Part shown: one piece after another, positions 12,782 through 39,567 of the stretch
Layout of the letters: each line of letters starts with the position of its first letter
Position numbering within the stretch: the first letter of the stretch is position 1
Assembly: GCA_024691985.1 (NCBI GenBank)
Contig: JAILNC010000070.1
Coordinates: 1 to 48,908, forward strand
Direction: 5' to 3'
DNA: 48,908 nucleotides
From: Oscillospiraceae bacterium
GTDB taxonomy: Bacteria; Bacillota; Clostridia; Oscillospirales; Oscillospiraceae
Notes under the pieces: model-generated
The model's input: the letters and a program-made list of their open reading frames with translations, nothing else
The model's database searches: none
What the model was told of the DNA's origin: nothing
Position numbers and translations under genes: made by a program

Positions 12782-12817
12782 CTGCATTGCCTGCGACTGT
12801 TCCACGCGGGCTGCCGA

Positions 12818-12900: not shown

Positions 12901-12915
12901 GCGGGAAGACGACCT

Positions 12916-13563: not shown

Positions 13564-13567
13564 TGTC

Positions 13568-16246: not shown

Positions 16247-16248
16247 TT

Positions 16249-24461: not shown

Positions 24462-25640
24462 TCAGCGGAGGCCGGCGGCGATTTCGTAGATCTCAAAGTG
24501 CGCGGCGCGGTCAAGCCCGACGTAGCCGCCCGTGACGCCGTCGCCGATGTTGTTCATCTCCACGAGACGGGGGATGGAGGCAGGGTCGGCGCCGATCTCG
24601 GCGAAGGTCAGGGGCATGTTCAGCTCGCGCAGGAAGTTCTTGAAGGCCTCGACGCCCTCGCGCGCGGTGCGCTTGGGATCGTCGTAGTCCATCTGGCAGC
24701 CGAAGATGCGCGTGGCCATCTGGGCGAAGCGCAGCGCGTCGCTGTGCTCGACGCAGTAGCTCATCCACGCGGGCATGATGACCGACAGGCCCGCGCCGTG
24801 GGCGCAGTCATAGACCGCGGAGAGCACATGCTCGAGATGGTGGCTGTTCCAGTCCTGCTTGCGGCCGACGCCCATGACGTCGTTGTGCACGACCATGCCC
24901 GCCCACATGATGTTGGCGCGGGCCTCGTAGTTATGGGGGTCCTCCATGACGCGTCTGCCCTCATGCATCATGGCGAGCACGATGCCCTCGAGCATGCGGT
25001 CGGTGGTCTCGACGTTCTTGGTGGGGGTGAAGTAGCGCTCGAAGGCGTGGGAGATGATGTCGGTCACGCCGCAGGCCGTCTGGAAGGCGGGCAGGCTCTC
25101 GGTCAGCACCGGGTCCATGATGGAGAACTTCGGGCGGATGCAGTCGGCCTCGGAGGCGGTCTTCTCCAGCGTCTTCTCGTTGGTGATGATGGCGTTGGGC
25201 GAGCCCTCGCTGCCGGAGGCGGCGATGGTCAGCACGACGCCGACGGGCAGGGCGGTCTCGGGCGTCTTGCCGGAATAGAAATCCCAGAAGTCCCCGTCGT
25301 AGGGCACGCCCATGGCGATGGTCTTGGCCGTGTCGATGCAGCTGCCGCCGCCGATGGCGAGCATGAAGTCGACCTTCTCGCGGCGGGCGAAGTCGATGCC
25401 CTCATACACGAGGCCGCTGCGGGGATTGGGCTTGACGCCGCCGAGCTCGACGGAGCTCAGACCCTCGGCCTCGAGGGAGGCCTTGACCCGGTCGAGCAGG
25501 CCGGACTTCTTCGCGGACTGGCCGCCGTAGACGATCATGACGCGGCTGCCGCCGAACTTCTTGACATACTTGCCGGCCTCGTTCTCGCGGTCGCGGCCGA
25601 AGACGAAATACGTGGGGCTGTAGAAATCGAAATTGTTCAT
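24462..25640 (-). CDS. Iron-containing alcohol dehydrogenase
   Basis: A group III NAD(P)-dependent dehydrogenase of 392 residues, related to butanol dehydrogenase/YqhD. GGGSCIDTAK binds the cofactor. The iron ligands lie in TDIISHAFERY and in HHLEHVLSAVYDCAHGAGLS. It is the last gene of the operon starting with mtnK. In a DHAP-shunt context it would reduce acetaldehyde (from 5-deoxyribulose-1-phosphate) or methylthioacetaldehyde (from 5-methylthioribulose-1-phosphate) to the alcohol and regenerate NAD+; that role is inferred from position. It lies 15 bp after the aldolase gene. Confidence 0.93.
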   Translation of the reverse strand: MNNFDFYSPTYFVFGRDRENEAGKYVKKFGGSRVMIVYGGQSAKKSGLLDRVKASLEAEGLSSVELGGVKPNPRSGLVYEGIDFARREKVDFMLAIGGGSCIDTAKTIAMGVPYDGDFWDFYSGKTPETALPVGVVLTIAASGSEGSPNAIITNEKTLEKTASEADCIRPKFSIMDPVLTESLPAFQTACGVTDIISHAFERYFTPTKNVETTDRMLEGIVLAMMHEGRRVMEDPHNYEARANIMWAGMVVHNDVMGVGRKQDWNSHHLEHVLSAVYDCAHGAGLSVIMPAWMSYCVEHSDALRFAQMATRIFGCQMDYDDPKRTAREGVEAFKNFLRELNMPLTFAEIGADPASIPRLVEMNNIGDGVTGGYVGLDRAAHFEIYEIAAGLR

Positions 25641-25655
25641 CTCGCGCTCCTCTTA

Positions 25656-26321
25656 TCAGTAACCGGTTTTGCCGCTGGCGGGCTGGCCGTAGGTCTTGAA
25701 GCCCTCGAACACCTCGTCCATCTCCTCCTTGCCGAGCACGAAGGGCTTGCCGACGCACATCGAGAGATACTGCAGCTGCGCGATGTACTCGAGATTCTTC
25801 GCAAGGCCGAAGGCGCTCTTGAGGTTCTTGCCGCAGACGATGATGCCGTGGTTGGCGAGCAGGACCGCGTCGCCGTCCCCGCAGTACTTGACCGCGTCGT
25901 TGGCCAGCTCCGGCGTGCCGAAGCGATGGTAGGGGGCACAGGGGACCTCGTAGCAGTTGGCGTCCGCCAGCACGTAGTGGACGGCCTCGATGGGCTTTCT
26001 GAGCACCGCGAAGGCGGTGCAGTAGAGCGAGTGCGTGTGGACGATGGCGCGGCAGCTCGGCTTGTTCTTGTAGAATTCCGAGTGCATATCCCACTCGCTG
26101 GAGGGCTTGCGCTTGCCGTCGACGATGTGGGAGTCCAGATCCATGACGACGATGTCCTCGGGCTTGGTCTCCATGTAGCCGATGCCGGAGGGCTTGATCG
26201 CCATCAGGCCGAGCTCGGGATTGTAGATGCTCTGGTTGCCGCTGGTGCCGGGGCAGAGGCCCGACGTGCTCATCTGTTTGCCGATCTCAACGATCAGCTC
26301 GCGTTCTTCCTGCATTAACAT
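25656..26321 (-). CDS. Class II (zinc) aldolase, fuculose-phosphate-aldolase type
   Basis: A 221-residue AraD/FucA-like enzyme. Visible features are the phosphate-binding CPGTSGNQSI and KPSGIGY loops, the catalytic Glu in PSSEWDMH, zinc ligands in VHTHSLY, and the third His in ANHGIIVCG. The family splits ketose-1-phosphates into dihydroxyacetone phosphate and an aldehyde. Next to mtnK and mtnA it fits the Ald2/DrdA role of the DHAP shunt, acting on 5-methylthioribulose-1-phosphate or 5-deoxyribulose-1-phosphate. L-fuculose-1-phosphate or L-rhamnulose-type substrates remain possible because the residues distinguishing them are not readable by eye. Confidence 0.9.
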   Translation of the reverse strand: MLMQEERELIVEIGKQMSTSGLCPGTSGNQSIYNPELGLMAIKPSGIGYMETKPEDIVVMDLDSHIVDGKRKPSSEWDMHSEFYKNKPSCRAIVHTHSLYCTAFAVLRKPIEAVHYVLADANCYEVPCAPYHRFGTPELANDAVKYCGDGDAVLLANHGIIVCGKNLKSAFGLAKNLEYIAQLQYLSMCVGKPFVLGKEEMDEVFEGFKTYGQPASGKTGY

Positions 26322-26355
26322 GGTGTGTTCCTCCGTTTATTAAAATAATTCTATT

Positions 26356-27804
26356 TCAGTTTTTGCTGACAGGCGGATTCGCGGCGAGGCGGTTCGCGCT
26401 CCACAGCGGGTGATAGCGGTGGATCAGCTGATCGCCGCGCGGACGGAAGACGCGTGCCTGCCCGTCCGCGTCCGGCGTATCGAAACCGAGCGCGGCATTG
26501 CAGACCGCGGCCAGACCCAGAACGGTCGCCTGCTCGAAGCCGGGCTTCAGGCGCAGCTCCAGCCCCGACAGATCGGCGAGCATCTGACACAGCGTGTCCG
26601 AGCGAAAGCCACCGCCGCAGCCGAGTATATAGCCGCGCCCGTGGCCGCTCAGCTCTCGCAGGCGCCAAAGCTGCTCGTAGATGGAGCAGGCGACGTCGGC
26701 CAGCTCCGCCCACATAAGATCGACGAGATCGGAGCCCTCCTGCAGCGGGGAGCGGAAGAAGAAGCCGCCGTGCCGCAGGGAGCGCCGCTCGTGGAAGAGC
26801 AGGGAGCTGAACGAGGCGGTGCAGGAGAAGTCCGTCTTCGCGGCGTAGGCCTTTTCCAACTCCTCGTAAGGGATGTCCGGACAGAGGGCCGCCTTGAGCC
26901 GCTGGTAGTTCAGACCCGTGACGCCGGGGTTCATCTCGATCAGATAGCCCTTCGCGCCGAGGTTCGCGTCGACCCAGACGCGCTGCGGTGCGTCGTAGAG
27001 CTTCGCGTCGACCAGCGCGGCGACCGGCGAGGTGGTGCCGGAGACGACGGCGATGTCGCCGGGCTCCAGCCCTGTCTGCACCAGCGCGGCCTGCGTGTCG
27101 GCCCCGCCGACGATGAAGCGGGCGTCCGCCTCCATGCCGAGGGCCTCGCGCAGCTCCGGCTTGACCGCGCCCGCGCTCTCGCCCGCCGTGGCGAGCGGGG
27201 GCAGGATGCCGCGGTCGACGCCGTAGGCGGCGCAAAGCGTGTCCGACCAGTCCTTCGCCTCGAGGTCGTAGAGCTGCGTCTCGCAGGCCTGCGAGGGCTC
27301 GAAGACGCAGTTTCCGGTGAAGAGCCACGCGACCCAGCCGCTCAGACTCAGCACCGCCCCGATCCGCTCATACAGCTCAGCCCGCTTTTCGCGCAGGCCC
27401 AGGAGCTTTGCCGCGCAGAAATCCTCGGTGACCCACTTGCCGGAGCGCTCGTAGATTTTTTCCGGCTCTTTGATCCCGGACATGAACTCCCGGCCGCGGT
27501 TGTCGATGTTCGGCAGGCCGTAAAAGACGCGGCCCTCTCTGTCCAGCAGGACGATGCTCTGCCGCGCGCCCGCCGCCGAGACGAGGCGGACATGCGCGTC
27601 GGGATGCTCCGCATGCAGCTCGCGGCAGCAGCGCAGCAGCTCGGTTTCCCACTCCTCCGGCAGGAAGTACTGCGCGTCGGGGTAGGCGTCGTCCCGGTAA
27701 TAGCGGTTGAGGAAGCTGCGCACGGCGAGCATATCGCCCCTGTCGGTGACGAGGGCGGCGCGGGTGCTGCCCGTGCCGAGATCGATCAGAAGATAATGCT
27801 CCAT
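26356..27804 (-). CDS. FGGY-family carbohydrate kinase, LsrK-like
   Basis: A 482-residue sugar kinase of the actin/hexokinase fold. The N-terminal nucleotide motif is LIDLGTGSTRAAL. The C-terminal domain has the ILGCGGGFRSDTLCQMLADLSG stretch (seen as ILGCGGGFRSD and LADLSG blocks) and VVSGTTSPVAAL. SAAGARQSIVLLDREGRV and NIDNRGREF resemble the autoinducer-2 kinase LsrK more than xylulose or glycerol kinases. It sits 3 bp after the 2-hydroxyacid dehydrogenase and before the aldolase. A kinase is redundant with MtnK for the standard DHAP shunt, so it likely acts on another substrate entering the same aldolase. Substrate not determined. Confidence 0.88.
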   Translation of the reverse strand: MEHYLLIDLGTGSTRAALVTDRGDMLAVRSFLNRYYRDDAYPDAQYFLPEEWETELLRCCRELHAEHPDAHVRLVSAAGARQSIVLLDREGRVFYGLPNIDNRGREFMSGIKEPEKIYERSGKWVTEDFCAAKLLGLREKRAELYERIGAVLSLSGWVAWLFTGNCVFEPSQACETQLYDLEAKDWSDTLCAAYGVDRGILPPLATAGESAGAVKPELREALGMEADARFIVGGADTQAALVQTGLEPGDIAVVSGTTSPVAALVDAKLYDAPQRVWVDANLGAKGYLIEMNPGVTGLNYQRLKAALCPDIPYEELEKAYAAKTDFSCTASFSSLLFHERRSLRHGGFFFRSPLQEGSDLVDLMWAELADVACSIYEQLWRLRELSGHGRGYILGCGGGFRSDTLCQMLADLSGLELRLKPGFEQATVLGLAAVCNAALGFDTPDADGQARVFRPRGDQLIHRYHPLWSANRLAANPPVSKN

Positions 27805-27807
27805 CGC

Positions 27808-28791
27808 TCAGGCGAGGACGTCGCGGTTATAGACGATCTTGCCCAGATCTTCCCCATTCAGCCACTTGCGCAGGCGGGTGTTGAGGATATCGGCCTGGTG
27901 GCTCGTGACCTCATAGGACGCGCCGCAGATATGCGGGGTGAGGATGACGTTCGGCAGCTCGCCGATGGCCAGATCTTCGGCCGTGGGCGGCTCGGTGTCG
28001 AGCACGTCCAGCACCGCGCCCGCGATGGCCTCGTCCTTGAGGAGGGAGACCAGCGCCGGGGTGTCGACCAGCGCGGAGCGGCCCGCGTTGACAAAGAGGG
28101 CGTCCGGCTTCATGGAGCGCAGCAGCTTCTCGCCGACGAGCCCCTTTGTCGAATCGCTCACCGGCAGGTGCAGGGAGACGACGTCGCAGGTGGCGAAGAG
28201 CTCCTCGAGCGAGAGCGGGGTGTAGTGGCCGTACTGACGGCCCTTGTAGTCGAAGTAGCACACGTCGCAGTCGAAGCCGTCGAGGATCTTCGCCGTGGCC
28301 TGGGCCACCGCGCCGAAGCCGACGAGGCCGACGCGCTTGCCCTGCAGCTCGTGCCCCATCCAGAGGAAGTAGGGCGTCGTGCCGGGGACCCACTTGCCGT
28401 CCTTGACCCACTGAATGGCCTCGAGCCCGTGGCGCAGATGCATGATGATCAGCGCGACGACCAGCTCCGCCACGGCCTGATTGTTGCGGCCCGGGGTGCA
28501 CAGCACGGGCACGCCCGCCTTCGTGCAGGCGGCGACGTCCAGATTCGCGGGGGTGGCGCGGCAGTCGCCGATGGCCTTGAGGCCCTTGTAACCGGCCAGC
28601 ACCTTTTCGGTCACGCGGTCGAGCTCGGTGATGAGCACGTCGGGCTGCTCCTTGAGCAGATGCTCCAGCATCTCATCCTCGTAGTAGCGCTCGCCGGTCT
28701 CGGTCCAGGGCTCGTAGACGACCTCCGTGAAGAGCTCTTCGAGCTCGGCAAGGCGTTTTTCGGGATAGGGGGCGCGAACATAGACTTTCAT
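27808..28791 (-). CDS. D-isomer-specific 2-hydroxyacid dehydrogenase
   Basis: A 327-residue NAD(P)-dependent dehydrogenase. The Rossmann motif is VGLVGFGAVAQATA (about residue 153). The catalytic Arg is in NAGRSALVD, the Glu in DTEPP and the His in TPHICGAS, so the R-E-H triad is intact. The family reduces 2-keto acids or oxidises D-2-hydroxyacids. It lies between mtnA (50 bp away) and the FGGY kinase (3 bp). The known shunt has no such step, so it may supply or drain a keto or hydroxy acid derived from a related sugar, or detoxify a by-product. Substrate unknown. Confidence 0.92.
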   Translation of the reverse strand: MKVYVRAPYPEKRLAELEELFTEVVYEPWTETGERYYEDEMLEHLLKEQPDVLITELDRVTEKVLAGYKGLKAIGDCRATPANLDVAACTKAGVPVLCTPGRNNQAVAELVVALIIMHLRHGLEAIQWVKDGKWVPGTTPYFLWMGHELQGKRVGLVGFGAVAQATAKILDGFDCDVCYFDYKGRQYGHYTPLSLEELFATCDVVSLHLPVSDSTKGLVGEKLLRSMKPDALFVNAGRSALVDTPALVSLLKDEAIAGAVLDVLDTEPPTAEDLAIGELPNVILTPHICGASYEVTSHQADILNTRLRKWLNGEDLGKIVYNRDVLA

Positions 28792-28841
28792 ATTGCTGCT
28801 CCTTTATATAAAATCAAAAGAATCCGCAGGGGACGGTGAAC

Positions 28842-29894
28842 TCAGTAGAAGGCCTTGACCTCACTGTCGAAGTAGCGGTCGAGCAGATAGGGCACGAACA
28901 CGCCCTTGTCGGTGACCGCGCCGGAGATCAGATGCGGCGGCACCACGTCGAAGGAGGGGTAGATGGCCTTGACCTGCGGCAGACAGTTCTGAATGCCGCG
29001 GTAGCGCAGCACCTGCTCGGGGTCGCGCATTTCGATGACGATGTCGTCCTTTGTGCGCTTGTCCCGGTCGGGGACGCCGGTGACGTAGTAGGGCACGCCG
29101 AAGTACTTGGCGAGGATCGCGATCTGGAAGGTGCCGATCTTGTTGGCGATGTGGCCGTCGCGGGCGATGGAGTCCGCCGCCGAGGTGAACAGGTCGATGC
29201 CCTCGTGCTGCATGGCGTAGGCGATCATGTTGTCGGTGAGCACCGTGGTGTCAAAGCCCATCTCGGCAAAGCAGCTCGAGGTCAGGCGCGCGCCCTGCAG
29301 ATAGGGCCTCGTCTCCGCGCAGTAGACGCGGAAGTCCTTCCCCTGCCTGCGCGCGGCGCGGATGACCGTGCCGATGATGGTCTCGCCGTAGCACTGGGTC
29401 AGGATGCTGCCGCCCTGCGGGATCAGCTCCGCCAGATAGTCGCCGACGATCTGCATCGTGCTGTAGCGGCGGTTGAGGGATTCGACCGTCGAGTCCACGA
29501 TGGCCTCGATCGGGTCCTTGCCCGCCTCGAGCGCCTCCTCGGCAAGCTCGGCCGCGCGGTAGGTGATCTGCCCGTAGCGGTTGGCCGTGGTGGGCCGGGC
29601 GTGGGCGAGATCGTAGGCCGCCTGCTTCAGAAAGGCGATCTGCTTTTCCTTGCTCTCGCCGCGCACCTGCCAGGCGGCCAGGGCCATGCCCATGCCGACG
29701 GCGGTGTAGGGGCCCGCCGACTGGGTGACCATATCGGCGATGGCCTGCCGCACCTCCTGATAGTCCTCGCACTCCACAAAGCGGATCTCGGTCGGGAAGA
29801 CCCGGCGGTCGAGGATGCGGACCTTGCCGTTTTCATACCAGGCGACGTTTTCGTATTTGAGCAGGAAGGGCATGCCCTGATCCATGCGTTCCAT
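28842..29894 (-). CDS. mtnA: S-methyl-5-thioribose-1-phosphate isomerase (also 5-deoxyribose-1-phosphate isomerase)
   Basis: It isomerises an aldose-1-phosphate to the ketose-1-phosphate. The 350-residue protein has the catalytic Cys 168 in TQCYGETIIGT and the Asp 241 in TSAADSIARDGHIANKIGT, plus AETRPYLQGARLT, all family hallmarks. These separate it from eIF2B-like relatives. It follows mtnK by 12 bp. With the aldolase downstream and no mtnB, mtnW or mtnC nearby, it is better placed in the DHAP shunt than in the complete methionine salvage cycle. Confidence 0.95.
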   Translation of the reverse strand: MERMDQGMPFLLKYENVAWYENGKVRILDRRVFPTEIRFVECEDYQEVRQAIADMVTQSAGPYTAVGMGMALAAWQVRGESKEKQIAFLKQAAYDLAHARPTTANRYGQITYRAAELAEEALEAGKDPIEAIVDSTVESLNRRYSTMQIVGDYLAELIPQGGSILTQCYGETIIGTVIRAARRQGKDFRVYCAETRPYLQGARLTSSCFAEMGFDTTVLTDNMIAYAMQHEGIDLFTSAADSIARDGHIANKIGTFQIAILAKYFGVPYYVTGVPDRDKRTKDDIVIEMRDPEQVLRYRGIQNCLPQVKAIYPSFDVVPPHLISGAVTDKGVFVPYLLDRYFDSEVKAFY

Positions 29895-29906
29895 GATCGT
29901 TCCTCC

Positions 29907-31121
29907 TTATGCCAGGATCAGGCGAAACAGCGCGGTGAGCCCGCCGCCGGAGCGGAGCGCCTCGCGCCGCTTGATGAGCGCGATGCCCAGCTTGACGAGC
30001 GCGCGGTCCATGGGGATGCGCTGCGCGGGGTCGGTCACGGAGCTGACCTCCATCACCTTGGAGTCGCCCACGGTGCGGCGGATGATCTCTGTCCCCGCGT
30101 AACCGAGGGAGTCGGCCATGACGGAATCGAGCCAGAAGGCCTTGAAGGCCGCGGTTTTGTAGAGCGGGAACGTGACCAGCTCGTCGTATTTCTTCTCAAG
30201 CTTTTCGCGCGTCATATCGTAAGTCTCGGCGATGAGCTTCGCCAGCTCCTCGACGGCCGCCTCCGCCGCCGGATCGCCGGGGCGGGTGAAGGCCTTGTTG
30301 GCCCAGGAGAAGAAGAGGTTGCCGATGACGTTGCCGATGTCGTAGCCCATGGGGCCGTAGAAGGCAAACTCGGGATCGAGCACCTTGAGCCCCGTCTCGT
30401 TTGCGAAGATGGAGCCGGAGTGCAGGTCGCCGTGCAGCAGGGCCTGGGCGTTGTTCATGAAGTTCAGGCGCAGCTTCGCGACCTCGGTGTGCAGCTCCTC
30501 GTCCTCGTACAGGAACTGACGCACAAAGTCCTCGTTGCCCGGGGTGATGATGTTGCGGTTTTTATAATTGTAGTATGGCTCCGTCAGCACCAGATCCTCG
30601 GTGATCTTGCACAGCTCGGGGTTGGTGTAGAACTTGACGCGCTTTTTCTTCTCCTCCGCGTCCATCACCAGATCGGCGGTGGGCAGGAGGGTGTCGACCA
30701 TAAAGCTCGAGATGTTTTCGCTCAAATGGGGATAGACGCGGTCGGCGGCCAGCTCCTTGCGGAGATTGCCGTAGGCGGACACGTCCTCCATGGCGGTGGC
30801 GGCCATGACCTCGTCGTAGTTGTAGACCGCGGGCACGCAGCCGGGGGCGAGCTCGCCCTCGAGCTGCAGGATGGCGGCCTCGATCTTGTTGCGGTAGATG
30901 TCCAGCGGCCGCCCCGAGGAGCGGAGCAGGCGGTCGGCCTGCTTGACGATGACGGAGCGCCCGTCGCGCTTCGAAGTGATCTTGAACACATAGTTGATGT
31001 TCCCGTCGCCGATCTCGACGCAGTCGGTCTCCTCGCCGGGGGCGAAGAAGTGCAGGACCTCCACGGCGTAGCGTTTGACGTCCTCGGGACTCATCAGAAA
31101 GAACTCGCTGAAGTCTCTCAT
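29907..31121 (-). CDS. mtnK: S-methyl-5-thioribose kinase
   Basis: It phosphorylates the C1 hydroxyl of 5-methylthioribose, and in the shunt also 5-deoxyribose. It has a protein-kinase-like fold of 404 residues: IGDGNINYVFKI is the Gly-rich loop, VIVKQAD holds the ATP lysine, LLHGDLHSGSIF the catalytic Asp 232, and VLDPEFAFYGPMGYDIGN the metal/phosphate-transfer motif. It is the first gene of a six-gene operon that ends with the alcohol dehydrogenase. A promoter lies at 31223-31251, divergent from the DeoR regulator. The nucleosidase that would supply its substrate is not in the window. Confidence 0.96.
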   Translation of the reverse strand: MRDFSEFFLMSPEDVKRYAVEVLHFFAPGEETDCVEIGDGNINYVFKITSKRDGRSVIVKQADRLLRSSGRPLDIYRNKIEAAILQLEGELAPGCVPAVYNYDEVMAATAMEDVSAYGNLRKELAADRVYPHLSENISSFMVDTLLPTADLVMDAEEKKKRVKFYTNPELCKITEDLVLTEPYYNYKNRNIITPGNEDFVRQFLYEDEELHTEVAKLRLNFMNNAQALLHGDLHSGSIFANETGLKVLDPEFAFYGPMGYDIGNVIGNLFFSWANKAFTRPGDPAAEAAVEELAKLIAETYDMTREKLEKKYDELVTFPLYKTAAFKAFWLDSVMADSLGYAGTEIIRRTVGDSKVMEVSSVTDPAQRIPMDRALVKLGIALIKRREALRSGGGLTALFRLILA

Positions 31122-31312: not shown

Positions 31313-31342
31313 TTGACTGTTTCCGGACAGTTCGTGTATAAT
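31313..31342 (+). promoter_or_regulatory. deoR-type regulator promoter with internal palindrome
   Basis: TTGACT (31313-31318), 18 bases, TATAAT (31337-31342). The spacer contains ACTGT-TTCCGG-ACAGT (31316-31331), a possible operator for the regulator itself. Confidence 0.75.
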
Positions 31343-31387
31343 GGAAAACAGAAATACACAAAACATCACAGAGAAGGAGGGTCGGAC

Positions 31388-32161
31388 ATGCTGAAGATCG
31401 AGCGGCACAGCATCATCGATCAGGAGATCAAGAAGCAGGGCTTCGTGCTGGTGCCCGCGCTGAGCGAGCTGCTGGACTGCAGCGAGGAGACGATACGCCG
31501 CGATCTCAAGGAAATGGAGAAGGCCGGGAAGCTGGTGCGCACCCACGGCGGCGCGTATCTGATCGAGAAGTACGACAAGGGCTTTCCCATCGAGCTGCGC
31601 AAATCCCAGCTCCAGCACACCAAGGAGCGCCTGGCCGACGCAGCCGTCAGTCTCATTCACGAAAACGACATGGTCATGCTGGATTCCAGCACCACCTGTC
31701 TGGCCATTGCCGCGGCCATCCTCGCCCGCGGCCTGAGCGTCACGCTCATCACGAACGCGCTCGAGGTCTGCAGCCTCTTTTCCGAGGCCAATTCCGACAT
31801 CAATCTGGTCTGCGTCGGCGGCACTTTCCGCCGCCGCACCATGTCCTTCGCCGACCCCAACACGGTGGAGGCGCTGCGCCGCTACTACGCGGACGTCGCC
31901 TTTGTCAGCTGCCCGAAGGTGAACGTGGAGTTCGGCCTGTCCGACAACCACATCAGCGAGGCCAACGTCCGCAAGCAGATGCTGCGCAACGCCAAGACAA
32001 AGGTCCTGGTGGCGGATCACACGAAGTTCGAGGGCAACGCCAACATCCTCTTCGAGGGGATGGACGATCTGAGCGTGCTCATCACGGACCAGAAGCTGCC
32101 GGAGGATATGGAGGCCTTTGCCGCCGCGCGCGGGATCGAGGTCGTCTACAGTCAGGAGTAA
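31388..32161 (+). CDS. DeoR/GlpR-family transcriptional regulator
   Basis: A 257-residue repressor-type protein. The N-terminal winged helix-turn-helix has VPALSELLDCSEETIRRDL and the wing KLVRTHGGAY, the DeoR signature. The C-terminal DeoR sensor domain, related to ribose-5-phosphate isomerase fold, has MLDSSTTCLAIA, LITNAL and GGTFRRRT and usually binds a phosphorylated sugar. I choose ATG 31388, with GGAGGG upstream, over the ATG at 31313, which lies in the -35 box. Divergent from mtnK, it probably senses a sugar phosphate of that pathway and represses the operon. The inducer is inferred. Confidence 0.93.
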   Translation: MLKIERHSIIDQEIKKQGFVLVPALSELLDCSEETIRRDLKEMEKAGKLVRTHGGAYLIEKYDKGFPIELRKSQLQHTKERLADAAVSLIHENDMVMLDSSTTCLAIAAAILARGLSVTLITNALEVCSLFSEANSDINLVCVGGTFRRRTMSFADPNTVEALRRYYADVAFVSCPKVNVEFGLSDNHISEANVRKQMLRNAKTKVLVADHTKFEGNANILFEGMDDLSVLITDQKLPEDMEAFAAARGIEVVYSQE

Positions 32162-32179: not shown

Positions 32180-32220
32180 GAGGGAAAGCGCATCCGGCGC
32201 TTTCCCTCCTTATCATTTTT
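32180..32220 (+). terminator. Terminator after the DeoR-family gene
   Basis: A perfect 12-bp stem GAGGGAAAGCGC / GCGCTTTCCCTC has a 5-base loop and a T run at 32216-32220. It lies between the convergent regulator and rpiB-like genes. Confidence 0.75.
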
Positions 32221-32740
32221 AAAGCTTCTGCTCCGGGTCCCACTCGAAGGGCTCGTAGGGCAATGCCGAAGGGCGCCAGCGCGCGCCGCTCATGTTGACG
32301 CTCTCGAGCTCGCGCAGCAGCGCCAGCGCCCCCTCGTGATGCCCGCCGTCGTACGCGGTCGTGAGCCAGACGCGCACGATCTCGGCGATCGTCCACGCGC
32401 CCAGCAGCCGCCCGCCCAGACACAGGACGTTGGAATCGTTGTGCCGCCGGGTCAGGCGCGCGCCGTACACGTCGCTGACGGCGGCGGCGCGTACGCCGGG
32501 GAACTTGTTGGCCGCGATGCTCATGCCGATGCCGGAGCCGCAGAGCAAAATGCCGCGCTCCGCCCGGCCCTCGGACACGGCGGAGGCCACCTTCGCCGCG
32601 TAGTACGGATAGCGGGAGGGCTCGTCCCCGCCGCCGCAGTCGACGTAAGCAAGGCCGAGCTCGTTCATCACGCGGAAGACGATCTGCTTGGCCTCGAAGC
32701 CCGCGTCGTCGCAGCCTACATAGACAGGCTTTTCCATCAT
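32219..32740 (-). CDS. rpiB: RpiB/LacA/LacB family sugar-phosphate isomerase
   Basis: It interconverts aldose and ketose phosphates, for example ribose-5-phosphate and ribulose-5-phosphate, or allose/galactose-6-phosphate types. The 173-residue protein has CGSGIGMSIAANKFPGVRAA with the catalytic Cys and RRHNDSNVLCLGGR with the conserved His. At the N-terminus it reads CDDAGFEAK where most family members have SDHAGF, so the usual His is Asp. It also has a C-terminal extension of about 20 residues (ARWRPSALPYEPFEWDPEQ). ATG 32740 overlaps the transketolase stop (ATGA). The exact substrate is uncertain. Confidence 0.88.
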   Translation of the reverse strand: MMEKPVYVGCDDAGFEAKQIVFRVMNELGLAYVDCGGGDEPSRYPYYAAKVASAVSEGRAERGILLCGSGIGMSIAANKFPGVRAAAVSDVYGARLTRRHNDSNVLCLGGRLLGAWTIAEIVRVWLTTAYDGGHHEGALALLRELESVNMSGARWRPSALPYEPFEWDPEQKL

Positions 32741-33678
32741 TTCTTCATGCGCACGGCGGCCTCCGCCTTCTCGGCGATGTCGGCGGCCGTGATATGATAG
32801 AGCTCCATCAGCGCGAGCGGGTCGCCGCTGCGTCCGAACTCGTCGCGAATGCCGACGCGCAGCACCGGCACCGGGCAGCTTTCGCACACGACTTCCGCGA
32901 CCGCGCCGCCGAGCCCGCCGAGGATGTTGGCCTCCTCGGCCGTGACGATGCAGCCGCACTGCTCCGCGGCGGCGAGCACGGCATCCGCGTCCAGCGGCTT
33001 TACGCAGTGGACGTCCAGCACGGTGGCCTCGATGCCCTTGGCGCGCAGCAGCTCCAGCGCCTTCATGGCCTCCTGCACCATCAGGCCTGTGGCGATGATG
33101 GCGACGTCTCTGCCGTCTGAGAGCTTCGAGGCCTTGCCCAGCTCGAAGCGGTAGTCCGGCAGGAGGTTCGTGCACTGCTCGACCTCGAGCCTGCCCAGAC
33201 GCATGAAGCAGGGCCCGTCGTACTGCGCGATGGCCTTGGTGACGAGCTTCGTCTCGTTGGCGTCGCAGGGGGAGAGTACCATCATGCCGGGGATGGCGCG
33301 CATGGCGGCCAGATCCTCCAGGCACTGGTGGGTGGCCCCGTCCTTGCCGACGGTGACGCCCGCGTGGGTACCGATGACCTTGACGTTCAGATGCGGATAG
33401 GCGAGGGAATTTCGGATCTGCTCGAAGGCGCGGCCTGCCGTGAACATGGCGAAGGAGTTGACAAAGACGGTCTTCCCGCAGGTCGCGAGACCCGCGGCCA
33501 TGCCCACCATGTTGGCCTCGGCGATGCCGATGTTGAAGGCGCGCTCGGGGTAGAGGGCGGCGAACTTCTCCGTGCGGGTACAGCACTGCAGGTCGGCGTC
33601 GAGCACGACGATGCGCGAGTCTTTGCCGATCTCGGCCAGCGCCTCGCCGTAGGCGCTGCGGGTGGATATCTTATTCAT
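32737..33678 (-). CDS. Transketolase, C-terminal subunit (split form)
   Basis: 313 residues carrying the pyrimidine-binding (Pyr) and C-terminal domains of a split transketolase. The catalytic Glu that activates thiamine diphosphate is in FNIGIAEANMVGMAAGLA. GTHAGVTVGKDGATHQ is the substrate loop. It works as a heterotetramer with the N-terminal subunit encoded just upstream, which overlaps it by 8 bases. The split form is common in Firmicutes catabolic operons and sulfosugar/pentose clusters. Confidence 0.95.
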   Translation of the reverse strand: MNKISTRSAYGEALAEIGKDSRIVVLDADLQCCTRTEKFAALYPERAFNIGIAEANMVGMAAGLATCGKTVFVNSFAMFTAGRAFEQIRNSLAYPHLNVKVIGTHAGVTVGKDGATHQCLEDLAAMRAIPGMMVLSPCDANETKLVTKAIAQYDGPCFMRLGRLEVEQCTNLLPDYRFELGKASKLSDGRDVAIIATGLMVQEAMKALELLRAKGIEATVLDVHCVKPLDADAVLAAAEQCGCIVTAEEANILGGLGGAVAEVVCESCPVPVLRVGIRDEFGRSGDPLALMELYHITAADIAEKAEAAVRMKK

Positions 33679-34846: not shown

Positions 34847-34877
34847 TTGACAAAGCGGTGATATTTTGTTTTACTAT
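34847..34877 (+). promoter_or_regulatory. livJ promoter
   Basis: TTGACA (34847-34852) and TACTAT (34872-34877) are 19 bases apart, a long spacer. TTTACT at 17 bases is an alternative -10. Confidence 0.55.
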
Positions 34878-34934
34878 AGCCAACAGCATGAAAAATGCTC
34901 GGCATTCACCAAATTTATTAGGAGGAAACAAAAA

Positions 34935-36158
34935 ATGAAAAAAGCATTGGCCCTGTTACTTGCAATGGTCATGATCTTCGCTCTGGCCGCCTGCGGCCAG
35001 CAGGCCGCTGCCCCGGCTGCCGCTCCCGCTGCGGCTCCCGCAGGCGACGCTCCCGCTGCTGCTCCCGCTGCCGCTGAGCCCGAAGTCATCAAGATCGGTT
35101 ATGTCTCTGACCTGACCGGCGGCACCTCCCTGTGGGGCAACGCCGGCAAGTACGGCGCCGAGATGGCGGTCGAAGAGATCAACGCCGCCGGCGGCGTCCT
35201 CGGCAAGCAGCTCGTTCTGGTCGCGATGGATGGCAAGGGCGAGGCGGCCGACTCCGTCAACGCGCTGCGCAAGCTCATCACCGACGAGGGCATCGTCGCC
35301 GAGATCGGCACGAACTTCTCTTCCTGCAACATCCCCATGGCTGCCGTCGCTGACGAGCTGAAGGTTCCCATCATCGGCACCGCCGCCTCCAACGAGCTCG
35401 TCACCGTGGACGAGAACGGCAAGCTCCACCCCTACTCCTTCCGTATGTGCTTCATTGACTCCTACCTCGGCACCGTCATGGGCACCTACGCCACCAAGGA
35501 GCTCGGCTTCACCAAGGCCGCCCTGTTCACCGTCGCCGGCAACACCAACTCCGAGTCCGTCGGCGCCTTCGTGAAGGACGCCTTCGTCGCCAACGGCGGC
35601 ACCATCGTTGCCGAGGAGCAGTGCCAGGAGGCCGACGTTGACTTCCGCGCGCAGCTGGCCAAGATCAAGGCTGCCGATCCCGAGGTCATCTTCGTCATGA
35701 TGAACGACTACGCCAAGAACGCCACCTTTGCCAAGCAGGCCCGCGAGATGGGCATCAACTGCCTGCTGATGGGCCATGACGGTTGGGACTCCCAGCAGCT
35801 GGCCGCCGAGGCGCAGGGTGCTCTGGAAGGCTGCAAGTACGTCTCCCGTATCGGCTTCTCCAAGCCCGAGGCCAAGGAGTTCGGCGAGAAGGTCGCCGCC
35901 AAGTACAACATCGGCATGGAGGCCGAGTGCCTCTTCGGTTGGGACGGCGTGCACTGGATCGTTGACGCCATCAACCGCGCCGGCTCCGCCGACCCCACCG
36001 CCATCCGTGACGCGCTGGAGGCCACCGACGTGTTCGAGGGCCTGATCGGCACCCTGGTCATGGATCCCGCCACCCACAACCCCGCGATGGCCTGCGCCAT
36101 CTATGAGTGCCACGGCGACGCCTTCGAGTATGTCGAGACCGTTGAAGCTGTTCAGTAA
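34935..36158 (+). CDS. livJ: Branched-chain amino-acid-type ABC transporter, substrate-binding lipoprotein
   Basis: A 407-residue lipoprotein that captures ligand outside the cell. A signal peptide ends LAAC with lipidated Cys 20. An Ala/Pro-rich spacer (about 23-48) tethers a Leu/Ile/Val-binding-protein fold that begins VIKIGYVSDLTGG and contains AAGGVLGKQL, GTNFSSCNIPMA and YAKNATFAKQAREMG. ATG 34935 is preceded by AGGAGG; upstream in-frame ATGs are rejected. The codon choice looks biased as in a strongly expressed gene. A hairpin after the gene probably keeps its mRNA more abundant than the downstream permeases. The ligand could be Leu/Ile/Val or another compound; the fold alone does not say. 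Confidence 0.93.
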   Translation: MKKALALLLAMVMIFALAACGQQAAAPAAAPAAAPAGDAPAAAPAAAEPEVIKIGYVSDLTGGTSLWGNAGKYGAEMAVEEINAAGGVLGKQLVLVAMDGKGEAADSVNALRKLITDEGIVAEIGTNFSSCNIPMAAVADELKVPIIGTAASNELVTVDENGKLHPYSFRMCFIDSYLGTVMGTYATKELGFTKAALFTVAGNTNSESVGAFVKDAFVANGGTIVAEEQCQEADVDFRAQLAKIKAADPEVIFVMMNDYAKNATFAKQAREMGINCLLMGHDGWDSQQLAAEAQGALEGCKYVSRIGFSKPEAKEFGEKVAAKYNIGMEAECLFGWDGVHWIVDAINRAGSADPTAIRDALEATDVFEGLIGTLVMDPATHNPAMACAIYECHGDAFEYVETVEAVQ

Positions 36159-36180
36159 AATAGTTTAACAGGTTCCCAAT

Positions 36181-36211
36181 GGGGGAGGACATGCTCCTCC
36201 CCCTCGTTTTA
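36181..36211 (+). terminator. Intra-operon hairpin between livJ and livH
   Basis: A perfect 9-bp stem GGGGGAGGA / TCCTCCCCC has a 5-base loop, followed by TCGTTTT. No new promoter is clear before livH, so it probably acts as a leaky terminator or mRNA stabiliser that sets high binding-protein levels. Confidence 0.8.
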
Positions 36212-36242
36212 GTTATAGATTGGATTTAGGAGAGATCGCACC

Positions 36243-37115
36243 ATGCTTCTGCAACAGATTATCACGGGGATCTCGATCGGCGGCATCTATGCGCTGCTGG
36301 CCACCGGATATTCCCTGATCTACAGCCTGCTGGACTTCTCCAACTGGTCGCACGGCGAATTCGCCATGGTCGGCGCCTACGTCGCCATTGTTTTCTCCAA
36401 CATACTGGGCACGCCCTTTGTGATCGCAGCTGTCATGGGCGTTCTCGGCGGTGCGTGCATCAGCTTCCTGTCGGAGCGCGTGGTCTACCGCCGCATCCGC
36501 TCCACGGGCGGCCCGAACATGTTCCTGATGATCGGCGCCATGGGCATGTCCAACGTCTTCCAGCAGGCGGCCAACCTGATCTTCACCGGTCAGTACCGCT
36601 CCTACAGCTTCAAGCTCCCCGTCTCCACCATCGAGGTCGGCGGCGCCTACATCGGCGTGCTCGACCTGATCAGCCTCGGCATCACGGCGGTCATTCTGGT
36701 CGTGCTGATCTACCTGATCAACAAGACCAAGTTCGGTCTGAACGTGCGCGCCATCGCCTGCAACCAGAAGGCGGCCCGTGTGCTTGGCATCCGCGTGGAC
36801 CAGTCCATCGCGACGGTGTTCCTGCTGGCCGGCTCTCTGGCCGGCGCCGCGGGCATCCTCTACGGCATGAAGTACAACGTCTTCCCGACCATGGGCAACG
36901 TGGGCCTCAAGGCCTTCATCGCCTCGGTCATCGGTGGCCTCGGCAGCGTGCCCGGCGCGATCGTCGGCGCGGTCCTGCTCGGCGTGCTGGAGACGCTTGT
37001 CTCGGCCTACATCAGCTCCAGCCTGCGCGACTTCTTCTCGTTCGCGCTGCTGATCGTGCTCCTGCTGGTCAAGCCGAGCGGCCTGTTCGGCGTGGACGTG
37101 CAGGAAAAGGCGTAA
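36243..37115 (+). CDS. livH: Branched-chain amino-acid-type ABC transporter permease (LivH)
   Basis: A 290-residue inner-membrane permease with about eight hydrophobic helices. It begins LLQQIITGISIGGIYALLA and has the LivH-type GEFAMVGAY segment. ASVIGGLGSVPGAIVGAVLLG near residue 225 is the EAA-like loop region that contacts the ATPases. KPSGLFG ends the transmembrane part. It pairs with LivM, 15 bp downstream. Confidence 0.95.
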   Translation: MLLQQIITGISIGGIYALLATGYSLIYSLLDFSNWSHGEFAMVGAYVAIVFSNILGTPFVIAAVMGVLGGACISFLSERVVYRRIRSTGGPNMFLMIGAMGMSNVFQQAANLIFTGQYRSYSFKLPVSTIEVGGAYIGVLDLISLGITAVILVVLIYLINKTKFGLNVRAIACNQKAARVLGIRVDQSIATVFLLAGSLAGAAGILYGMKYNVFPTMGNVGLKAFIASVIGGLGSVPGAIVGAVLLGVLETLVSAYISSSLRDFFSFALLIVLLLVKPSGLFGVDVQEKA

Positions 37116-37130
37116 AGGAGGCACTGCATC

Positions 37131-38072
37131 ATGATACAGGTATTCAACGCCATCAACAATGCCTTCTGCAATTTCTTCGGCATCAACAGCTACATCCAGG
37201 GCGTCGTCGTCCTGATGTGCGTCAACATCATCGCCGTGCTCGGCATGTCGGTGCTCACGGGCTTTACCCGGCTCTTCTCCTTCGGCAACGCGGGCTTCAT
37301 GTCCATCGGCGCCTACGCCGTCGCTATCCTGACGGTGCGCTACCACGTCAACTTCCTGCTGGCCATCGTCCTCGGCTCCGCCTTTGCGGGCCTGGTCGCC
37401 TATCTGCTCGGCTCCATCACGCTCAAGCTCCACGGCGACTACTTCCTCATCACCTGTCTGGGCTTCGGGGAATGCGTACGCGTGCTGTTCAACTACACAA
37501 AGAAGCTGACGGGCGGCTCGGCGGGCTTCCCCGGCATCCCGAACTACTCCAACATGCTCTTCGCCGTGATCTGCGCGGTGCTGGCCTTCTTCATCGCCTG
37601 GCGCTTCATCCACTCCAAGTACGGCCGCAACCTGACGTCCGTGCGTGAAAACGAGCTCGCGGCCGAGGCTGTCGGCATCGACGCCTTCCGCTTCAAGAGG
37701 ATGAGCTTCACCTTCTCCGCGATCTACGCCGGCTGGGCGGGCGCGCTCTACGGCGGCTACCTGATGTACATCGTGCCCTCCAGCTTCAATCTGGCCAAGA
37801 GCTGCGAGCTGATCACCACCACGGTCATCGGCGGTCTCGGCTCCCTGACCGGCTCCCTGCTCGGCGCGATCATCGTCACCCTGCTGCCGGAGATCTTCCG
37901 CGGCCTGGCCAACTACCGCATGCTCCTCTACGGCATCGCGGTGGTGCTGATCATCATGTTCAAGCCCAGCGGCCTGTACGGCTATAAGGAGTTCTCCCTC
38001 AAGCGCTTCATCGCCAACATCAAGAAGCTCTTCGGCGGGAAGAAGCCCGCGGCCGGGAAGGAGGCGGAGTGA
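37131..38072 (+). CDS. livM: Branched-chain amino-acid-type ABC transporter permease (LivM)
   Basis: A 313-residue inner-membrane permease. The N-terminal helices include VLTGFTRLFSFGNAGFMSIGAY, seen as LFSFGNAGFMSIGAYA. The conserved loops LKLHGDYFLITCLGFGE and TVIGGLGSLTGSLLGA are present, and the tail ends KPSGLYGYKEF plus a basic cytoplasmic segment. It forms the channel with LivH. Its TGA shares a base with the livG ATG. Confidence 0.95.
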   Translation: MIQVFNAINNAFCNFFGINSYIQGVVVLMCVNIIAVLGMSVLTGFTRLFSFGNAGFMSIGAYAVAILTVRYHVNFLLAIVLGSAFAGLVAYLLGSITLKLHGDYFLITCLGFGECVRVLFNYTKKLTGGSAGFPGIPNYSNMLFAVICAVLAFFIAWRFIHSKYGRNLTSVRENELAAEAVGIDAFRFKRMSFTFSAIYAGWAGALYGGYLMYIVPSSFNLAKSCELITTTVIGGLGSLTGSLLGAIIVTLLPEIFRGLANYRMLLYGIAVVLIIMFKPSGLYGYKEFSLKRFIANIKKLFGGKKPAAGKEAE

Positions 38073-38857
38073 TGAATAAGGAAACTGCCTCCGTCCCCGT
38101 GCTGGAAATGCAGAATGTGGAGAAGCACTTCGGCGGCGTCCACGCCATCGACAACTTCTCCGTCAAGATCGAGCACGGCCGCATCCACGGTCTGATCGGC
38201 CCCAACGGCGCCGGCAAGACCACCATCTTCAACAACATCACCGGCATCTACGCGCCCGACTCCGGCAAGATCTTCTTCCTGGGCAAGGACATCACCGGCT
38301 CCTCTCCGCACAAGGTGGCGCAGCTCGGCATCGGCCGCACCTTCCAGAACATCCGTCTGTTCTCGAACCTGTCCGTCATGGACAACGTCATCATCGCGAG
38401 CAACATGGACGCGACCTACAACATGCCCCAGGCCATCTTCCACACCGCCAAGTACAAGGAGCGCGAGAAGCACCTCAACGACAAGGCCATGAACCTGCTG
38501 GAGATCGTGGGTCTGCAGGACAAGGCCGCGGAGCGCGCCAACTCCCTGCCCTACGGCCACCAGCGCAAGCTGGAGATCGCCCGCGCCATGGCGCTCGAGC
38601 CCAAGCTCCTCCTGCTTGACGAGCCCGCCGCCGGCATGAACGCGGACGAGTCTCTGGAGCTGGTCGATTTCGTGCGCCAGATCCGCGACCGCTTCGACAT
38701 CACCATCCTGATGATCGAGCACCACATGGACGTCGTCACCAATCTCTGCGATTACTGCACGGTCCTCAACTTCGGCAAGACCATCGCCGTCGGCACCCCC
38801 GCCGAGGTCAAGAGCGATCCCGAGGTCATCCGCGCCTATCTGGGAGGGAATGAATAA
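38072..38857 (+). CDS. livG: Branched-chain amino-acid-type ABC transporter ATPase (LivG)
   Basis: A 261-residue ATPase. The Walker A is GPNGAGKTT, the signature region reads LPYGHQRKLEIARAMA (the LSGG motif replaced by LPYG as usual in LivG), and the Walker B is LLLLDEPAAGM followed by the switch His in IEHHMDV. GRTFQNIRLF is the Q-loop. I choose ATG 38072, with GGAGG 7-8 bases upstream, over the GTG at 38069. The livF ATG overlaps its stop by one base. Confidence 0.95.
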   Translation: MNKETASVPVLEMQNVEKHFGGVHAIDNFSVKIEHGRIHGLIGPNGAGKTTIFNNITGIYAPDSGKIFFLGKDITGSSPHKVAQLGIGRTFQNIRLFSNLSVMDNVIIASNMDATYNMPQAIFHTAKYKEREKHLNDKAMNLLEIVGLQDKAAERANSLPYGHQRKLEIARAMALEPKLLLLDEPAAGMNADESLELVDFVRQIRDRFDITILMIEHHMDVVTNLCDYCTVLNFGKTIAVGTPAEVKSDPEVIRAYLGGNE

Positions 38858-39567
38858 TGTCTGCGATTTTGAAGATCGACAATCTCAAAGCGGCGTACGG
38901 CGGCATTCATGCTCTCCGCGGCGTCTCCCTGCAGGTCGAGGAGGGCGAGATCGTCTCCGTCCTCGGCGCGAACGGCGCCGGCAAGTCCACGCTGCTCAAG
39001 TGCATCTCCGCGGTCATGAAGCGTACCGACGGCACGATCGAGTTCATGGGCAAGCCCATCCCCAGCAAGCCCCATGAGATCGTGGAGGCCGGTCTGGTGC
39101 AGGTCCCCGAGGCCCGGCAGATCTTCGCCAAGCTCACCGTCATGGAAAACCTGCGCGTCGGCGTGGGCAACCGCAAGGACGTCGAGGGCATCAAGCGCGA
39201 CTATGAGCGCGTCTTCACCATGTTCCCGCGCCTGAAGGAGCGCGAGAAGCAGTACGGCGGTCTCCTCTCCGGCGGCGAGCAGCAGATGCTGGCCATCGCC
39301 CGCGGCATCATGGCCAACCCCAAGCTCATGATGTTCGACGAGCCTTCGCTGGGCCTTGCGCCCGTGATCGTCACGCAGATGTTCGAGATCATCAAGGAGA
39401 TCAACGACGAGGGCTGCTCCATCCTGCTGGTCGAGCAGAACGCCAACAAGGCCCTGCAGATCTCCGACCACGCCTACATCATGCAGACCGGCGAGGTCGT
39501 GCGCTACGGCACCGGCGCGGAGCTGCTGGCGGACGACACCCTCAGCGCCGCCTACCTCGGCAACTGA
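38857..39567 (+). CDS. livF: Branched-chain amino-acid-type ABC transporter ATPase (LivF)
   Basis: A 236-residue ATPase, partner of LivG. It has Walker A GANGAGKST, Q-loop QVPEARQIF, signature LLSGGEQQMLAIARG, Walker B LMMFDEPSLGL and the switch segment LLVEQNANKAL. It is the last gene of livJHMGF, with a strong terminator 20 bp downstream. Confidence 0.96.
   Translation: MSAILKIDNLKAAYGGIHALRGVSLQVEEGEIVSVLGANGAGKSTLLKCISAVMKRTDGTIEFMGKPIPSKPHEIVEAGLVQVPEARQIFAKLTVMENLRVGVGNRKDVEGIKRDYERVFTMFPRLKEREKQYGGLLSGGEQQMLAIARGIMANPKLMMFDEPSLGLAPVIVTQMFEIIKEINDEGCSILLVEQNANKALQISDHAYIMQTGEVVRYGTGAELLADDTLSAAYLGN

Follow-up and report, generated by a model that had tools for sequence, protein, structure and literature searches.

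Operon structure and genomic context

The window analysed here is a stretch of 48,908 nucleotides from one contig (JAILNC010000070.1) of an Oscillospiraceae bacterium. It carries six intact open reading frames, all on the minus strand between positions 24462 and 31121. An open reading frame check gave intergenic gaps of 12, 50, 3, 34 and 15 bases. The gene families agree with those proposed in an earlier note, which had read the run as a DHAP-shunt operon extended by an LsrK-like kinase and a 2-hydroxyacid dehydrogenase (HADH). The features are listed in Table 1; the profile scan of the window covers position 20936 onward.

Table 1. Genes of the operon and of its surroundings, with the basis of each assignment
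Feature	Position	Strand	Basis
mtnK	29907..31121	-	TIGR01767, 370 bits (cut-off 275); HGDLH and DPE motifs
mtnA, methylthioribose-1-P / deoxyribose-1-P isomerase, divergent clade	28842..29894	-	PRK05720, 332 bits (cut-off 271); TIGR00512, 211 bits (cut-off 279)
D-2-hydroxyacid dehydrogenase (HADH), of a clade accompanying FGGY kinase and class II aldolase	27808..28791	-	Profiles, tree, invariant residues
FGGY-family sugar kinase, LsrK sister or near neighbour	26356..27804	-	Profiles, trees, fold
Class II aldolase of the fuculose-1-P type, presumably acting on 5-deoxyribulose-1-P / methylthioribulose-1-P	25656..26321	-	PRK06833, 252.5 bits (cut-off 264); FucA alignment
Iron-containing alcohol dehydrogenase, presumed to reduce the aldehyde set free by the aldolase	24462..25640	-	PF00465; PRK15138, 263 bits (cut-off 645)
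DeoR-family regulator, divergent, likely operon repressor	31313..32161	+	PF00455/PF08220
ABC transporter of the Liv type with a binding protein, two permeases and two ATPases, candidate for uptake	34866..39567	+	Binding protein and permeases by profile; two ATPase labels by reading of the sequence

A DeoR-type regulator gene adjoins the operon in its relatives too. The Liv-type transporter occupies the equivalent position in six related loci (L038, L040, L041, L044, L045 and L048), and in five others (L043, L046, L047, L054 and L142) it is replaced by a Na+/H+-antiporter-like permease. Together, the regulator and the transporter point to uptake of an outside substrate. Repression of the E. coli DHAP shunt by the DeoR-family protein MtnR is described in PMC12632272.

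The probable core of a DHAP shunt

It is plausible, judging from sequence, that MtnK, MtnA, the aldolase and the iron-containing alcohol dehydrogenase form a DHAP shunt, as the earlier note had proposed. MtnK exceeds its curated cut-off and keeps the HGDLH and DPE motifs, which we take to be functional. MtnA exceeds the cut-off of PRK05720 and stays under that of TIGR00512; in the alignment with Klebsiella MtnA, a Cys and an Asp, presumably the catalytic residues, are retained. The top profile of the aldolase is that of fuculose-phosphate aldolase, the cut-off of which it just misses; the aldolases of G308, G149 and Enterococcus raffinosus pass it. A His and a Glu, which we regard as metal-binding or catalytic, align with those of FucA. 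For the alcohol dehydrogenase the best NCBIfam model is PRK15138, with a score below the cut-off.

The aldolase tree was built from 49 candidates reduced to 36 rows, with three E. coli references; the aldolase of E. raffinosus was left out, and the tree contains no characterised DrdA or Ald2 sequence. Aldolases from extended operons, including that of the window, and from plain-shunt operons interleave in a single clade (four label changes), which adjoins E. coli FucA with support of 96/92. Owing to this interleaving, the kinase-HADH pair looks like an optional addition that feeds one and the same aldolase.

A source of free 5-modified ribose is encoded in the window genome, in which the MTA/SAH nucleosidase MtnN scores 169 bits against a cut-off of 73.8. 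Genome-wide searches covered 18 entries, which represent 17 distinct genomes (loci L052 and L044, from G008 and G452, belong to one genome); the genome of L039 and the E. raffinosus record were excluded. MtnN is above the cut-off in eight of the 18 entries, and two nearly complete genomes, G008 (97%) and G175 (99%), show weak matches only. Acireductone dioxygenase MtnD (PF03079), an enzyme of universal methionine salvage, was found in none of the 17 genomes, including that of the window (79% complete). The earlier statement that the later methionine-salvage genes are absent thus holds in its MtnD part, within this coverage.

The operon shares with the described DHAP shunt and 5-deoxyribose salvage systems (mtnK-mtnA-ald2; drdK-drdI-drdA) a kinase, an isomerase and a class II aldolase in one operon, as well as a DeoR-type regulator nearby and the lack of a detected MtnD. 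It differs from them in three genes added to the operon, those for HADH, the FGGY kinase and the iron-containing alcohol dehydrogenase, and in an MtnA that scores under the TIGR00512 cut-off.

The FGGY kinase and the 2-hydroxyacid dehydrogenase

The best profile of the kinase is the autoinducer-2 kinase PRK10939 with 140.5 bits, far under the cut-off of 528; XylB is close behind (135.6 bits, cut-off 380). LsrK is nevertheless the nearest named relative both by sequence and in the two best trees (support 98/92 and 90/72). It also comes first in the fold ranking, although xylulokinases and glycerol kinases equal its TM-scores. The R-Q/E, N-I-D-N-R and GGAD stretches of the kinase align with R-E, N-V-D-A-R and GGGD of LsrK. 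The description of the kinase as LsrK-like is therefore borne out as a statement of kinship; the operon itself contains no lsr genes. The tree with 98/92 support was made from 62 of 70 candidates, after removal of eight duplicates or fragments; the kinase of G261 (L125), which is split, fell below the length limit and was left out. In neither best tree does the kinase group with FucK or RhaB, but the AU test does not reject its placement with FucK (p 0.095).

HADH has glyoxylate reductase as its best profile, with 176.5 bits against a cut-off of 455. Glyoxylate reductases are also its top single-sequence matches, whereas the family profile puts phosphoglycerate dehydrogenase first. R238, E267 and H287, presumably catalytic, are invariant across 11 orthologues. 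The usual glycine loop, to which we ascribe a role towards the carboxylate of the substrate, is replaced by R-A-T-P-A-N. The structure model has a pLDDT of 81.5 and a pTM of 0.64. For the tree, 67 candidates were reduced to 44 by removal of duplicates, contained copies and proteins longer than 420 aa, and three E. coli references were added; the E. raffinosus and Klebsiella proteins were not included. HADH falls into a clade of 20 sequences (96/91) with other HADHs linked to FGGY kinases and aldolases, apart from SerA, GhrB and PdxB.

Conservation of the kinase-dehydrogenase pair

Searches with the kinase found at least 12 loci of its clade besides the window (L038-L047, L054 and L142), and in all 12 an adjacent HADH gene and an mtn gene lie in the same gene run; L039 and L042 are short contigs where mtnK is out of view. 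One of these searches scored at most five candidates per genome, and the loci are those among the matches listed. In another we considered the best 10 of 20 records; the eight records after E. raffinosus have 25-27% identity. The E. raffinosus megaplasmid, represented by one record (a second, H42, was left out), keeps the full set in a different order, HADH-FGGY-aldolase-ADH-mtnK-mtnA. The claim that the kinase and HADH are extra to the core is thus upheld; both are conserved, with some variation in gene order. Such recurrence beside mtn genes argues that the pair is no accident.

Viewed from mtnK, most loci lack the pair: it is present in four of the 38 that were retrieved from among the matches of MtnK searches. 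Therefore the shunt does not need the pair. In G308, mtnK is accompanied by an aldolase, HADH and an FGGY kinase of a different subfamily.

A related arrangement exists in the methionine-salvage region of Klebsiella pneumoniae. There, a true mtnB (333 bits, cut-off 226), an FGGY kinase gene and an HADH gene run in the same direction, separated by a gap of 12 bases and joined by an overlap of 4 bases, and this HADH has 43% identity to that of G308. In both G308 and Klebsiella the kinase belongs to the LyxK side and is paired with a related HADH. MtnB acts on methylthioribulose-1-P. The shunt aldolase Ald2 acts on the same compound, according to PMC10986504. The Klebsiella region therefore resembles the operon in placing FGGY and HADH beside an enzyme for methylthioribulose-1-P; it differs in having the dehydratase MtnB for the aldolase, a LyxK-side kinase, mtnC and mtnD. 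Unrelated genes are also present in it. A DNA similarity search of E. coli genomes for a stretch homologous to mtnB-FGGY-HADH gave no match.

Proposed pathway and alternative explanations

We consider it probable that the operon encodes a DHAP shunt to which a dedicated second branch is attached. In the core, MtnN would free 5-methylthioribose or 5-deoxyribose, which MtnK would phosphorylate at C1 and MtnA would isomerise to a ketose-1-phosphate. The aldolase would cleave this product to DHAP and (methylthio)acetaldehyde, and the alcohol dehydrogenase would reduce the aldehyde, regenerating the oxidised cofactor in an anaerobe. The core chemistry is established in other bacteria, and we infer it here. 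In the branch, HADH and the FGGY kinase may jointly convert a further C5 compound from this family to a ketose-1-phosphate for the same aldolase. Against this proposal as a whole speak the aldolase, given its narrowly missed cut-off, the nearness of its clade to FucA and the G308, G149 and E. raffinosus aldolases that pass the fuculose-phosphate aldolase cut-off, the mtnK loci that mostly lack the pair, the position of mtnA outside the operon in L045 and L054, the detection of MtnN in fewer than half of the entries, and the unrelated genes of the Klebsiella region.

As to its chemistry, we can only tentatively suggest that the pair opens a salvage route, not described before, for methylthioribose or 5-deoxyribose in a second class of forms (oxidised, dicarbonyl or free ketose). 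This route would bypass MtnK and MtnA; in Clostridia and Bacilli it would enter the DHAP shunt at the aldolase, and in Klebsiella, where the kinase is a different one, it would enter methionine salvage at MtnB. Our best guess at the individual steps, itself rather doubtful, is that a free 5-modified pentulose receives a phosphate at C1 from the kinase, and that HADH makes this pentulose in a redox step from a more oxidised or more reduced precursor, e.g., a dicarbonyl or a sugar acid. FGGY kinases of the LsrK/GlpK type phosphorylate a primary hydroxyl beside CHOH rather than beside a ketone, which fits a C1-ketose kinase poorly, and neutral sugars are unusual substrates for 2-hydroxyacid dehydrogenases. 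A literature search, mostly of open-access papers without supplements, found, among the records listed, no paper that links FGGY or HADH to the salvage of 5-deoxyribose or methylthioribose. What becomes of the by-products of S-adenosylmethionine in anaerobic bacteria of the gut and rumen is, in our judgement, poorly mapped; a conserved pair with mtn genes in two Bacillota classes and a related one by Klebsiella mtnB suggests that one more of them is salvaged.

Other explanations of the pair have to be weighed. The operon might unite two unrelated sugar pathways, so that HADH and the FGGY kinase degrade a different sugar, or sugar acid, from the diet and borrow the aldolase and alcohol dehydrogenase, the mtn link being a regulatory convenience. 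FGGY-HADH-aldolase sets without mtn genes do occur in the retrieved stretches of G104, G149, G182, G261, Paracoccus and Sagittula; but among the matches listed the kinase clade is seen only beside mtn genes in 13 loci (window included) found independently of mtnK, and the mtn link recurs with another kinase subfamily in G308 and Klebsiella, which makes this reading unlikely. The same mtn-free sets, as well as the glyoxylate reductases at the top of the single-sequence matches, would suit a reductase on the output side: the kinase would make a carboxylated ketose-1-P, the aldolase would split it to DHAP and glyoxylate, and HADH would reduce glyoxylate just as the alcohol dehydrogenase reduces acetaldehyde. 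Such a scheme accounts for two kinases and two reductases around a single aldolase. Still, we find it quite improbable given the glyoxylate reductase score far under the cut-off, the first rank of phosphoglycerate dehydrogenase with the family profile, the replaced glycine loop, and the Klebsiella pair, which sits with mtnB and no aldolase. A fuculose- or rhamnulose-type deoxysugar operon with misannotated MtnK and MtnA is hardly credible. The logic of FGGY kinase, class II aldolase and iron-containing alcohol dehydrogenase does resemble fucK-fucA-fucO, PRK06833 is the best model of the aldolase, and a protein with a fucose-isomerase C domain is encoded 10 kb away, though beside its own XylB-side kinase. 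However, MtnK and MtnA exceed curated cut-offs, the operon has no fucose or rhamnose isomerase, and the best trees put the kinase in another lineage, even if the FucK grouping is not rejected. The kinase and aldolase trees at least weaken this explanation: a firm placement of both enzymes with fuculose or rhamnulose enzymes was not observed, but the aldolase clade does adjoin FucA.

The suggestion that the kinase handles autoinducer-2 is not supported. As the main role of the operon, autoinducer-2 processing is a weak proposal because neither the window genome (79% complete) nor nine of the 12 carriers searched yielded LuxS, and because Oscillibacter ruminantium has, besides the operon, a true lsrK (50% identity to that of E. 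coli) and a homologue of lsrF. LuxS was found in three of the 18 entries. A more detailed version would have the kinase phosphorylate DPD like LsrK, after which P-DPD isomerises to 3-hydroxy-2,4-pentanedione-5-P, HADH reduces one ketone, and the aldolase, in place of LsrF, converts the 5-deoxypentulose-1-P to DHAP and acetaldehyde. Searches for LsrF gave nothing in 13 of the 17 genomes, that of the window included, and autoinducer-2 would therefore need another route; LsrK kinship and the aligned stretches agree with this version. In G447 (locus L038), both LuxS and LsrF are present and it is the operon kinase that matches LsrK best (105 bits). Nonetheless, we judge the version very unlikely in view of the low LsrK score, the scarcity of LuxS, the separate genes of O. 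ruminantium, and the LyxK-side kinases that accompany a related HADH in G308 and Klebsiella (the Klebsiella HADH being outside the tree). Searches with E. coli LsrF and LsrG reported no match in the retrieved loci. G026, whose shunt operon is of the plain form, likewise has a separate LsrK.

Three loci (L045, L054 and L055) had suggested a pathway without MtnA. It was dismissed since MtnA-family genes lie elsewhere in those genomes. The MtnA-family gene of G175 stands beside a second aldolase gene and a gene that reads, from its sequence, as nucleoside-phosphorylase-like.

The operon in the window

The six genes that the earlier note had read as one operon are intact and run in tandem along the minus strand (31121 to 24462), with gaps of 12, 50, 3, 34 and 15 bases. 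The active-site motifs aligned with Klebsiella and E. coli relatives, whose residues we take to be catalytic, are kept in MtnK, MtnA and the aldolase. An MTA/SAH nucleosidase scores above the cut-off in the window genome (8 of 18 entries overall), whereas genomes G008 and G175 give no more than weak matches; a search of 17 genomes, the window genome included, revealed no acireductone dioxygenase. In published accounts, the DHAP shunt runs from nucleosidase through kinase and isomerase to aldolase (PMC6079011, PMC10986504, PMC12632272), and the E. coli operon has a DeoR-family repressor (PMC12632272), with which the DeoR-family gene divergent from the window mtnK is consistent. The core of the operon very probably encodes a DHAP shunt, and this part of the earlier interpretation stood.

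Beyond the DeoR gene come an RpiB-like gene and a split transketolase, and then a Liv-type ABC transporter (a label based on profile matches of its binding protein and two permeases). The RpiB-like/transketolase block recurs in L044/L052, two loci from one genome, and was seen in none of the remaining extended loci, i.e., those that carry the 2-hydroxyacid dehydrogenase (HADH) and FGGY kinase pair.

Features of the window and of related loci
Feature	Location	Coordinates (strand)	Remarks
MTR kinase (MtnK)	window operon, first gene		curated model, above cut-off
MtnA-type isomerase	window operon, second gene		above PRK05720 cut-off, below TIGR00512 cut-off
2-hydroxyacid dehydrogenase	window operon, third gene		curated models
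FGGY kinase	window operon, fourth gene		curated models
Fuculose-phosphate-type class II aldolase	window operon, fifth gene		252.5 vs cut-off 264, just below
Iron alcohol dehydrogenase (ADH)	window operon, sixth gene		curated models
RpiB-like isomerase and split transketolase genes	window	32219-34543 (-)	between DeoR gene and ABC transporter
Second sugar operon	window	41586-48320 (-)	fucose-isomerase-C-domain protein, DUF4867 protein, FGGY kinase, ABC transporter genes
FGGY kinase of second sugar operon	window	43712-45277	XylB-side
Extended operon between two transposase-like ORFs	L142, Enterococcus raffinosus plasmid (1.1 Mb)	2179-17289	ORF labels read from sequence
mtnB, FGGY kinase, HADH	L143, Klebsiella pneumoniae	9887-13029	co-directional; 12-base gap, 4-base overlap
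Separate cluster	L091, genome G175	8748-13447	MtnA, nucleoside-phosphorylase-like gene, permease, DeoR regulator, FucA-like aldolase; phosphorylase and permease labels read from sequence
FGGY kinase split by in-frame stop	L125, genome G261	6675-8240	adjoins HADH and aldolase
FGGY-HADH-aldolase set	L126, genome G149	2500-10486	preceded by two related regulator ORFs and by glycerol-1-phosphate-dehydrogenase-like and HAD-phosphatase-like genes; labels of these read from sequence

Conservation of the pair

The extra kinase-HADH pair beside mtn genes is real. With the window kinase as the query, 10 loci were obtained from GTDB contigs. A second search covered 291 genomes of the same class; 239 have an FGGY match of some kind, and the G175 kinase (302 bits) is the sole clear standout among the matches listed, the next best scoring 117. 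A plasmid search gave E. raffinosus in two records among the best 10 of 20, one of which was fetched. At all 12 kinase-found loci outside the window the HADH adjoins the kinase and an mtn gene lies within the same run. This gene is visibly mtnK in 10 of them; the contigs of L039 and L042 start inside mtnA. For L045 and L054 (G175), mtnA lies elsewhere in the genome. One more extended case, G036 (L048), was found via MtnK.

An operon-borne ADH is present in 9 of the 13 non-window extended loci. The contigs of L039 and L045 stop before an ADH could appear, none was found at L047, and the sole ADH-like gene of L046 (38%) is on the opposite strand, past the DeoR gene. The E. raffinosus order is permease-HADH-FGGY-aldolase-ADH-mtnK-mtnA; this operon may be mobile, because transposase-like ORFs flank it on a plasmid.

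Among the 38 loci fetched via MtnK searches, four have both FGGY kinase and HADH (L048, L052, L054, L055). An mtnK match was obtained for 7 of the 37 genomes in the window's genus. Three of these (the window genome, G036 and G008) have the extended form; three others (G026, G010 and G027) carry mtnK, mtnA and the aldolase but lack both HADH and kinase; in G001 the fetched stretch shows mtnK-mtnA and no aldolase.

The substrate is likely taken up from outside. Outside the window, 11 loci have a sufficiently long flank, and each shows on the regulator side either a Liv-type system (L038, L040, L041, L044, L045, L048) or a Na+/H+-antiporter-like permease (L043, L046, L047, L054, L142). Such a permease also occurs at the plain loci L050 (37%) and L063 (65%), which have no pair. 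Neither transporter was seen at L055 (G308), whose kinase belongs to another subfamily.

Descent of the dehydrogenase and the kinase

The HADHs form one clade of 20 rows (96/91), separate from SerA, GhrB and PdxB and including those of genomes G308, G104, G182, G149 and G261. All 20 sit in clusters with FGGY kinase and class II aldolase, counting L039, where the aldolase runs off the contig, and G261, where a stop splits the kinase. None of the 24 remaining non-reference HADH rows had both neighbours, a soft contrast since many have only about 1.5 kb of flank.

The window-type kinases are a long-branched clade that adjoins LsrK in two trees, at 98/92 with 62 rows and at 90/72 with 36 rows and a larger set of references. 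The latter does not reject a grouping with FucK (AU p 0.095), and both trees are flagged for uneven letter make-up. LsrK is also the best PDB match by sequence and the first by E-value in a fold search; its TM-scores there are matched by xylulokinases and glycerol kinases.

The earlier note had raised the possibility that the kinase handles autoinducer-2. This appears doubtful: its score is far below the LsrK cut-off, and, with several genomes incomplete, LuxS turned up in 3 of 18 entries (of 12 distinct carriers of the window-type kinase that were searched, 3 have it) and LsrF in 4 of 17 genomes, once weakly. A true LsrK occurs in G026 and O. ruminantium among the eight genomes searched, in the latter in addition to the operon kinase. 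G447 (L038) departs from this pattern in favour of the idea: it has LuxS and LsrF, and its best LsrK match is the operon kinase.

The kinases of G308 and Klebsiella belong to a different, LyxK-side lineage (36-row tree). The G308 HADH falls inside the 20-row clade, and the Klebsiella HADH is 43% identical to it. The G308 pair adjoins mtnK; the Klebsiella pair adjoins mtnB in a region that also holds mtnK, mtnA, mtnC and mtnD. Two kinase lineages are thus linked to 5-modified ribose metabolism, the strongest hint at the function of the pair. In a second Klebsiella record the same place has kinase and HADH matches in pieces.

Proposed role of the pair

In the aldolase tree, whose rows do not include E. 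raffinosus (46% to the window aldolase), one clade (100/99) holds sequences from 11 extended operons and 4 plain ones, intermixed. The plain/extended label needs 4 changes on this tree, not fewer than shuffled labels. Given this intermixing, the aldolase probably acts on one substrate whether or not the pair is present, and the pair is probably accessory to that aldolase. Methylthioribulose-1-phosphate, or else its 5-deoxy analogue, would be the compound on which the aldolase and MtnB converge.

Most simply, the kinase would turn a free pentulose into a methylthioribulose-1-phosphate-like ketose-1-phosphate, and the HADH would carry out a redox step around that ketose-1-phosphate or pentulose. 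Two points count against this reading. LsrK/GlpK-type kinases usually phosphorylate adjacent to CHOH; and in the HADH an unusual R-A-T-P-A-N loop replaces the glycine loop that holds a carboxylate, so its substrate may be something besides a plain 2-oxo acid. The operon is probably a new, well conserved form of the DHAP shunt with one extra branch; literature searches, with subscription journals mostly outside their reach, found no published link of these FGGY kinase and HADH families to the shunt.

Related clusters

The separate G175 cluster (L091) is apparently a phosphorylase form of the DHAP shunt; the same genome also carries the mtnK-HADH-FGGY-aldolase-ADH operon. Another catabolic cluster, on Sagittula and Paracoccus plasmids (L145, L146), combines an FGGY kinase, an HADH and a class II aldolase with three CoA-transferase genes, an acetolactate-synthase-like gene and a molybdopterin oxidoreductase.
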